Shown piece by piece: positions 4,601 to 44,897 of a DNA stretch of 64,000 nucleotides. Positions within the stretch are counted from its first letter, which is position 1. The number at the start of each line of letters is the position of its first letter. The position numbers were made by a program, and so were the translations under genes. The stretch is from Nothopassalora personata. Lineage: Eukaryota; Ascomycota; Dothideomycetes; Mycosphaerellales; Mycosphaerellaceae. The notes under the pieces are model-generated. The model did no database searches. It was not told where the DNA came from and saw only the letters and a program-made list of their open reading frames with translations. Location of the stretch: positions 1,116,001-1,180,000 of the forward strand of contig CM066291.1 in the NCBI GenBank assembly GCA_033816765.1, written 5' to 3'.

Positions 4601-4678
4601 AGATGACTACATAAGGTGCTTAATGGCAACCACGGGCGGCCAGAAGCGATGAGCACACTCTAATGGAGCAAAAAAAGA
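1634..4678. other. Gene-free stretch containing one MITE
   Basis: Apart from the inverted-repeat element at 2088-2362, no reading frame here resembles a protein or can be joined by plausible introns. Around 2830-2980 there is a TA-rich patch with a small inverted match (CCTAGCCAA near 2840 and TTGGCTAG near 2968) that may be a decayed repeat. The 5' part (1634-2085) would hold the hexose transporter promoter. Confidence 0.6.
2088..2362. mobile_element. Tc1/mariner-type MITE, 275 bp
   Basis: A 275-bp element bounded by terminal inverted repeats of about 64 bp. The left arm (2088-2151) and the reverse complement of the right arm (2299-2362) both begin CAGTCCAGTGCA and match at close to nine of ten positions. 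Both ends abut the dinucleotide TA (2086-2087 and 2363-2364), the target duplication of Tc1/mariner transposons. The interior has no transposase, so the copy would depend on an enzyme encoded elsewhere. Many arm mismatches are C/T or A/G transitions, as expected from repeat-induced point mutation, but the number is too small to prove it. Confidence 0.85.
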
Positions 4679-4831
4679 TTCCGACACGGGGAATTGAACC
4701 TATTTGACAATCAGTACGTGGCAAACAGACCTTTTAGACTGGTGCTTACCCCGGCCACCTGTGGGCTATCGTTGGATGCGCAGATCGCAAGCAATGAGAG
4801 ACAGGTATCCTAGCCACTAGACCATATCGGA
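4679..4831 (-). tRNA. tRNA-Glu(CTC) with anticodon intron and a T-arm GT-AG insert
   Basis: On the minus strand the acceptor is TCCGATA paired with TGTCGGA. The D-arm is GTCTAGTGGCTAGGAT, and the anticodon stem is CCTGT/ACAGG with loop CTCTCAC, giving anticodon CTC. A 31-nt intron sits at the canonical site after position 37. A second insert of 50 nt (4700-4749) splits the T-stem between positions 52 and 53. It begins GTAAGC, contains TACTGATT and ends AATAG. Removing both gives a 72-nt tRNA with T-arm CGGGG-TTCAATT-CCCCG and an intact cloverleaf. The gene is followed directly by a T7 run (4670-4676), a normal RNA polymerase III terminator. Identity as tRNA-Glu is firm; the nature of the second insert is inference. 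Confidence 0.9.
4700..4749 (-). other. Spliceosomal-type insert in the tRNA-Glu T-arm
   Basis: Fifty nucleotides with a GTAAGC 5' end, a branch-like ACTGAT 15 nt before the 3' end, and a TAG 3' end. Because the insert ends in G, the B-box core GTTCAATTCC is still contiguous in the gene. Length and signals match the 47-57 nt introns of neighbouring protein genes. Confidence 0.7.
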
Positions 4832-44193: not shown

Positions 44194-44262
44194 GCCGGGG
44201 TAGCTCAATCGGTAGAGCGTGTGGCTCTTAGCCTTGAATGGCGAGATCACCTCAAGGTCGTG

Positions 44263-44320
44263 GTATGTTCTCACCGATCGAATTCGGATTGAACCTCAAA
44301 AAGACTGACCCTTCACCCAG
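44263..44320 (+). other. First spliceosomal-type insert in the tRNA-Lys T-arm
   Basis: 58 nt with a GTATGT donor, GACTGACC as a consensus fungal branch site 15 nt before the end, and a pyrimidine-rich CACCCAG acceptor. It splits the T-stem after GTG (positions 51/52). Confidence 0.75.
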
Positions 44321-44329
44321 GGTTCGAGC

Positions 44330-44386
44330 GTAAGCATTAACCGATGTTCTCAATGATTAGAACATGTTGTTAACAAACTCTTGAAG
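44330..44386 (+). other. Second spliceosomal-type insert in the tRNA-Lys T-arm
   Basis: 57 nt with a GTAAGC donor, GTTAAC as candidate branch site and a TTGAAG acceptor. It lies between the T-loop (TTCGAGC) and the 3' T-stem strand (CCCAC), so it breaks the last two C residues of the B-box. Confidence 0.7.
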
Positions 44387-44399
44387 CCCACCTTCGGCT

Positions 44400-44897
44400 A
44401 TTCCTATACAAAGTCTCCTGACCTTCACCAATTTTTTTTGGTTCTTTCGATGCATGTTCTGGGTTGAGGGAGATGTACTTGAAGGTAGTAGAATCAGATA
44501 TTTGCCAAATTTTGCCTACACAGAGCTCAAATCGCAAGTCATCTTTTTGAGGGTATCCCAAGGTCTGAGCAAATCCCTTCAATCCTGGATGGCATCCTGG
44601 AAGTACAGCAATGACCAGTCCCTCAAACTGACGATATATAAAAGAAGTTTTGTACACCTCACGGACCCAAAGGGTCATTTGAATCGTTCTTTTTCACTTT
44701 GATATGTTGAAGTGACGAGATCGACGGTATTTTGGAAGGCATTTTCTTCCATTGCCCATTGCCATCTCCATTTTGGACGTCGTCATCTCGGATTGTACTC
44801 TACATCAAAGATGGGCATGCCGTCCATCAATATCACGTCTATGTATGACCTGTGAAGCCATGTCAGGGCATGGCCGCAGAAATTAGTCGGAAGAAGC
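44400..44897. other. Spacer with one doubtful minus-strand frame
   Basis: A 102-codon minus-strand frame (44370-44678) starting MTLWVREVYKTSFIYRQFEG overlaps the tRNA-Lys end and has no recognised family; I do not call it as a gene. Confidence 0.35.

Follow-up and report, generated by a model that had tools for sequence, protein, structure and literature searches.

The window analysed here is a stretch of 64,000 nucleotides of contig CM066291.1 of Nothopassalora personata. It contains a tRNA-Lys(CTT) gene and a tRNA-Glu(CTC) gene, which carry two GT-AG introns and one, respectively, besides an ordinary tRNA intron after nucleotide 37 (Table 1). In tRNA-Lys(CTT), the first GT-AG intron reads GTATGT...CTGAC...CACCCAG, with the branch site CTGAC 12 nt from its 3' end, and the second reads GTAAGC...TTAAC...TTGAAG, with TTAAC 13 nt from its 3' end. 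The first-pass annotation had described these as two inserts in the T-arm, and their coordinates, their ends and the branch site of the first all hold on re-reading. As it had claimed, removal of both inserts gives the T-arm GTGGG-TTCGAGC-CCCAC, and the acceptor strand CTTCGGC pairs with GCCGGGG, two G-U pairs included. Once the GT-AG introns are cut out, ARAGORN names the gene tRNA-Lys(ctt). Its genomic B box agrees with the consensus in 9 of 11 letters, two of the 11 places being free.

Table 1. Features of the two tRNA genes found in the window (positions are those of the window).
Feature	Position	Strand	Remarks
tRNA-Lys(CTT) gene	44194..44399	+	nt 1 to discriminator T73; four exons, three introns
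Ordinary tRNA intron of tRNA-Lys(CTT)	44231..44248	+	18 nt long, after nt 37
GT-AG intron 1 of tRNA-Lys(CTT)	44263..44320	+	58 nt long, between tRNA nt 51 and 52
9-nt exon GGTTCGAGC of tRNA-Lys(CTT)	44321..44329	+	holds B-box core
GT-AG intron 2 of tRNA-Lys(CTT)	44330..44386	+	57 nt long, between tRNA nt 60 and 61
T8 run, presumed Pol III terminator of tRNA-Lys(CTT)	44432..44439	+	
tRNA-Glu(CTC) gene	4679..4831	-	Rfam tRNA score 30.7 bits; T-arm gap of 56 nt
Ordinary tRNA intron of tRNA-Glu(CTC)	4764..4794	-	31 nt long, after nt 37
GT-AG intron of tRNA-Glu(CTC)	4700..4749	-	50 nt long, in the T-stem between nt 52 and 53
T7 run, presumed Pol III terminator of tRNA-Glu(CTC)	4670..4676	-	

The GT-AG intron of tRNA-Glu(CTC) reads GTAAGC...ACTGATT...AATAG, with CTGAT as the branch site. 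A splicing-aware scan of both strands, starting from seven D-arm anchors, found exactly these two tRNA genes in the window, and both contain GT-AG introns; the reversed window, with two anchors, gave no tRNA gene. ARAGORN reported no tRNA on the raw window, and Rfam at the gathering score matched a tRNA at the Glu locus only. For the methylenetetrahydrofolate reductase of the window, the closest protein with a species name is that of Dothistroma septosporum (93%), which would place the fungus in the Mycosphaerellaceae.

The first-pass annotation had treated tRNA-Lys(CTT) as a single odd gene. Instead, the phenomenon is widespread: in the 54.5-Mb assembly (40 contigs), GT-AG introns were found in 17 of the 33 nuclear tRNA genes that were readable by eye or script, which are an incomplete set, and these 17 genes hold 25 introns at 15 positions, with up to three per gene. 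The loci were gathered by a DNA search with the Lys gene, which yielded the three other Lys-CTT genes, and with five D-arm patterns (25, 5, 25, 73, and 14 matches); from the third and fourth patterns, 18 of 25 and 22 of 73 matches were fetched. The pattern search is blind to genes with an interrupted D-arm, and Phe, Trp, Ile, Cys, Gln, and Ser are among the isotypes absent from the readable set. Intron-bearing genes code for Lys-CTT (four genes, 9 introns), Lys-TTT (2 introns), Glu-CTC (two genes, 1 each), Gly-TCC (1), Arg-ACG (two genes, 1 each), Arg-TCG (2), Tyr (1), Leu-TAA (1), Val-AAC (1), Asn (2), Ala-TGC (1), and Thr-TGT (1). The positions used, numbered by hand, are 6/7, 25/26, 45/46, 46/47, 47/48, 50/51, 51/52, 52/53, 53/54, 58/59, 60/61, 61/62, 62/63, 63/64, and 69/70, and they lie mostly in the variable loop and the T-arm. 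The D-arm and the T-loop TTCRA are cut by none of the 25 introns, which says little because the search itself required both to be intact. In the acceptor stem, GT-AG introns were seen in L121 (Arg-TCG) at 69/70 and in L060 (Asn) at 6/7, so that a few end nucleotides are split from the remaining tRNA; the proposed splicing would leave the Asn tRNA with an A-C mismatch at 7:66. The position-37 intron is kept in 16 of the 17 genes, the exception being Val (L082).

The 16 genes without GT-AG introns are Tyr (L069), Val (L085), Met, His, Gly-CCC, three Ala-AGC, five Gly-GCC, two Pro-AGG, and Arg-TCT. For Tyr (L066 and L069) and Val (L082 and L085), one gene has a GT-AG intron and the other does not, and these pairs are natural material for a comparison of expression. 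Within the incomplete set, Lys, Glu-CTC, Arg-ACG, Asn, Leu-TAA, and Thr-TGT are known in the interrupted form only, with all Lys genes interrupted (CTT 4/4, TTT 1/1). Since the census is incomplete, isoacceptors besides Lys-CTT may have intact copies elsewhere in the genome.

Fourteen D-arm loci in all were left uncounted. Thirteen had no convincing tRNA (L077, L092, L095, L096, L099, L100, L101, L102, L107, L123, L124, L128, and L131), and L109 showed none by eye. Partial tRNA features and no full cloverleaf were seen at L095, L101, L102, L107, and L128, which may be genes with hidden anticodon-arm introns or decayed genes. L104-L106, L108, L129, and L130 look like repeats and were rejected as tRNA genes; L129 and L130 represent a second tRNA-derived repeat family. 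A search of the genome with the Rfam tRNA family (63 of 2063 candidates scored) gave no tRNA census because it was filled by one tRNA-derived repeat, which accounted for all 27 loci read outside contig C17. This repeat is a large family (L004-L030, e.g., G000:C1:7751404-7751477) and is typified by the sequence GGCTAGGTAGCTCAGTGGTAGAGC. Two DNA queries built from fungal tRNAs returned the Glu gene of the window only, or nothing.

The intron borders were fixed by the tRNA structure in a blind search, which sought the best cloverleaf with at most one insertion on either side of the T-loop and had no knowledge of splice sites. Among the 46 loci searched, 16 were uninterrupted, 17 needed insertions, 2 had no cloverleaf, and 11 lacked T33. 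For 20 insertions at 14 loci, the set of equally good borders included GT..AG in 17 cases, against 0.3 expected for random dinucleotides, and the next commonest border pairs, at 5, were slid versions of the same borders. Three loci with four insertions were set aside from this count, namely L060 and L127, in which some or all introns fall outside the regions covered by the model, and L124, which was not taken for a tRNA. The best blind borders of these three are not GT..AG, and with them included the count is 17 of 24. The three of the 20 insertions without GT..AG among the best borders are those on the left of L032 and L033 and on the right of L121; L033 has three introns, more than the blind model allows.

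Removal of the GT-AG introns also made the genes visible to ARAGORN. It found all 17 after removal, naming 13 of them as read by hand, which may be set beside the 16 genes without GT-AG introns, where it found 16 and named 13 as hand-read. When equal lengths shifted by 8-12 nt were removed, ARAGORN found only 1-3 of the 17; small shifts were tolerated (16/17 at -1, 13/17 at +1), with the maximum at shift zero. Before removal it had missed 14 of the 17 genes and misnamed the remaining three, so tRNA finders may overlook such genes. The program tRNAscan-SE 2.0 is described as seeking non-canonical introns among the candidates that its archaeal model yields (PMC8450103). Shuffling of the sequence 3' of nucleotide 37 gave no cloverleaf in 3600 trials (12 intron-bearing loci, 300 each, with up to two introns allowed). 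In addition, all 298 kb fetched were scanned automatically with the splicing-aware method. The 208 anchors led to 36 hits, of which 5 are on C17, taken as mitochondrial, and 31 are among the 33 nuclear genes. L098 and L122 were missed because they have no matching branch site, and at L033, L082, and L121 the scan placed introns differently from the hand reading, or placed fewer. The reversed 298 kb gave no hits, from only 23 anchors, as the loci had been chosen for anchors.

Judged against published fungal values, the 25 tRNA introns look like ordinary fungal spliceosomal introns. They are 49-59 nt long, with one of 74 nt, and the published fungal length of regular introns is 50-55 nt (PMC4457414). 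At the 5' splice site, position 3 is a purine in 24 of the 25, position 5 is G in every one, and position 6 is T in 19, while the last three letters are CAG in 16, TAG in 5, and AAG in 4. The published fungal branch site is RCTRAY at 6-36 nt from the intron end (PMC5832005). In this interval YTRAY occurs in 22 of 25 introns, compared with 30% of shuffled introns, and the branch site lies 10-14 nt from the end in 21 and reads CTRAY in 19; the three introns with no YTRAY there are those of L098 and L122 and the 5' intron of L060. Thus GT..AG at borders fixed by structure, a 5' splice site of GTRNGT or close to it, and an RCTRAY-like branch site, which mark U2-type fungal introns, are all present. 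Group I and group II introns are longer than these inserts and were set aside.

The sequence behind the genes points to transcription by RNA polymerase III. A run of T5 or longer lies within 60 nt of all 17 intron genes and of 14 of the 16 others, and at 2.1% of random window places. The genomic B box has 8-11 of 11 letters, two places being free, in 16 of the 17 intron genes; L033 was excluded from the box measurements because the script picked a site inside an intron. The presence of A and B boxes is a biased test, since the same elements, including an intact TTCRA, were used to find the genes. A point against spliceosomal introns in these genes is that U6, the best-known example of a spliced Pol III RNA in fungi, has two full-length matches in this genome, at G000:C3:3902167-3902266 and C6:4370284-4370383, both without an intron. 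The usual substrates of the spliceosome are Pol II transcripts, and the A and B boxes of these tRNA genes are 60-127 bp apart (16 genes), with 104-127 bp in 13 of 16, which would suit genes read by RNA polymerase II with splicing coupled to it as in mRNA. However, this reading is very unlikely, because T-run terminators stand close behind every one of the genes, the B boxes are preserved within the bias just described, and the spliced U6 and U3 of fungi indicate that small RNAs other than mRNA can be spliced (PMC5832005).

A second alternative is that the inserts are tRNA-type introns at unusual sites, which the tRNA splicing endonuclease cuts. Archaeal introns are known at 25/26, 45/46, and 53/54, sites that are used here too, and T-arm introns occur in nucleomorph tRNAs (PMC4090602). 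The endonuclease is also presumably active in this fungus, as 16 of the 17 genes keep a position-37 intron. However, the bulge-helix-bulge motif is absent as a signal: its 4-bp helix, in which intron nucleotides 2-5 pair with nucleotides 2-5 of the second exon, is complete at only 2 of the 25 introns, and the mean number of pairs is 1.68, compared with 1.74 for shuffled partners. Cleavage by the endonuclease would also leave unexplained the GT..AG ends at the blindly placed insertions and the branch motif, and we regard it as extremely unlikely. The introns share no common stable structure, with a folding z-score below -2 in 3 of 25.

The four Lys-CTT genes (L031-L034), which lie on contigs C1, C4, C5, and C7, allow the spliced product to be compared with the sequences around it. 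In all six pairs, the first 37 and the last 35 nt of the spliced tRNA agree completely (100%). Introns at like positions share 49-65% identity, around the 55% that the same aligner gives on average when all 25 introns are compared in pairs. The 100-nt flanks are 49-55% identical upstream and 58-64% downstream, and a weak leftover similarity may persist among the introns and flanks. The upstream intron lies at different sites in the copies (45/46, 46/47, 50/51, and 51/52), and the product is the same. At the level of sequence, this unchanged product with its diverged introns is the trace left by selection on the spliced RNA. Similarly, the two Arg-ACG genes are 97% identical at their ends and 60% in their GT-AG introns. 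Lost constraint on the tRNA body, the hallmark of a tRNA pseudogene, is found in neither the Lys-CTT nor the Arg-ACG genes. An intron at 60/61 or 61/62 is present in all four Lys-CTT genes, suggesting that it is probably older than their duplication. All four also have a U-U mismatch at 29:41 in the anticodon stem. The smallest exons, of 5 nt (TCGTG) and 9 nt, are those of L033. The 3' trailers of L031-L034 open with the same nine letters, ATTCCTATA.

The first-pass annotation had also raised the matter of intact tRNA-Lys(CTT) copies elsewhere, and the joined T-arm with at most two mismatches was not found in the assembly. Nine matches had three mismatches, of which two are inside the tRNA-derived repeat and the others resemble it. 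That the interrupted genes are dead copies damaged by intron-like insertions, as has been assumed for eukaryotic tRNA genes with insertions in the D- or T-arm (PMC4090602) and as the intact partners of Tyr L066 and Val L082 might suggest, is scarcely credible in view of the identical Lys ends at four diverged loci, the lack of an intact Lys-CTT gene in that search, the T-runs behind all 17 genes, and the six tRNA kinds that the incomplete set contains in interrupted form only.

The genes are thus very probably working nuclear Pol III tRNA genes, with U2-type spliceosomal introns at places other than the one where tRNA introns usually lie. The first-pass reading of the inserts as spliceosomal-type introns in a Pol III gene gains support from the recurrence of such introns in about half of the readable tRNA genes, from splice-site, branch-site, and length statistics that match fungal mRNA introns, from the absent bulge-helix-bulge signal together with the T-run terminators, and from the unchanged spliced product of the four Lys loci. 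Pol III would transcribe the whole precursor from the A and B boxes, and the major spliceosome, working by intron definition, would remove the introns of about 50 nt, including those that border the 5-nt and 9-nt exons. The T-arm or tRNA body would fold after the GT-AG introns have left, RNase P and tRNase Z would trim the ends, and the tRNA splicing endonuclease and a ligase would take out the position-37 intron. Because the endonuclease recognises the folded body of the tRNA, the spliceosome would have to act before it, and two unrelated splicing machines would therefore process one pre-tRNA in turn.

The textbook view recognises a single class of nuclear tRNA intron, situated after position 37 and removed by a protein endonuclease. 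Reportedly, mRNA-type introns were described in 1993, in a paper cited by PMC11782384, in the nuclear 18S rRNA genes of ascomycetes, which would likewise be spliceosomal introns in a non-mRNA gene not read by Pol II; those are in rRNA transcribed by Pol I, whereas ours are in tRNA. The introns of fungal U6 snRNA and U3 snoRNA resemble the tRNA introns in having GT-AG ends and RCTRAY branch sites within small structured RNAs other than mRNA, and in being present or absent between paralogues; according to a 2017 paper, no small structured RNAs besides U3 and U6 are known to contain introns often (PMC5832005). The present case differs in that the RNAs are tRNAs, with up to three such introns per gene, 15 positions in use, and an ordinary tRNA intron beside them. 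In archaea, nucleomorphs, and Cyanidioschyzon merolae, tRNA introns also lie outside 37/38, several per gene and in the D- and T-arms included, and they are ascribed to the endonuclease and the bulge-helix-bulge motif or to an unknown route (PMC4090602). By contrast, the introns described here have no bulge-helix-bulge motif and do have GT-AG ends and branch sites. The same 2014 review, where it deals with insertions in the D- and T-arms, lists them as supposed pseudogenes, with nucleomorphs and a red alga excepted (PMC4090602).

Multiplication of spliceosomal introns has been described in the same fungal group. The genomes of Fulvia fulva, Dothistroma septosporum, and relatives contain introner-like elements that have multiplied, the cases described being in protein genes (PMC4457414), while ours are in tRNA genes. 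With the length of regular introns and with no similar pair by blastn among the 25, the tRNA introns do not look like fresh introner copies, and they may be old, decayed introner-like elements. Among the matches listed in our literature search, whose scope excluded preprints and most subscription papers, no title or abstract reported spliceosomal introns in nuclear tRNA genes, and the first-pass statement that no fungal case is established stands uncontradicted within that scope. The type of intron and the machine are already known; the gene class, tRNA, is new.

Making the intron-bearing tRNAs probably depends on the mRNA splicing machine, as judged from these genes, and such a dependence is not known for tRNAs. 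It is likely that the tRNA supply of this lineage depends on the major spliceosome, that a large part of the nuclear tRNA set has come to contain these introns as they spread, with what are apparently the only Lys genes among those affected, and that pre-tRNAs with exons down to 5 nt are processed by both the spliceosome and the endonuclease. If this is true, Pol III precursors besides U6 are good substrates of the spliceosome, and these genes offer a small, strongly constrained RNA for studying intron gain, exact splice-site choice, and micro-exons. Moreover, mRNA splicing would be joined to translation capacity in this fungus.
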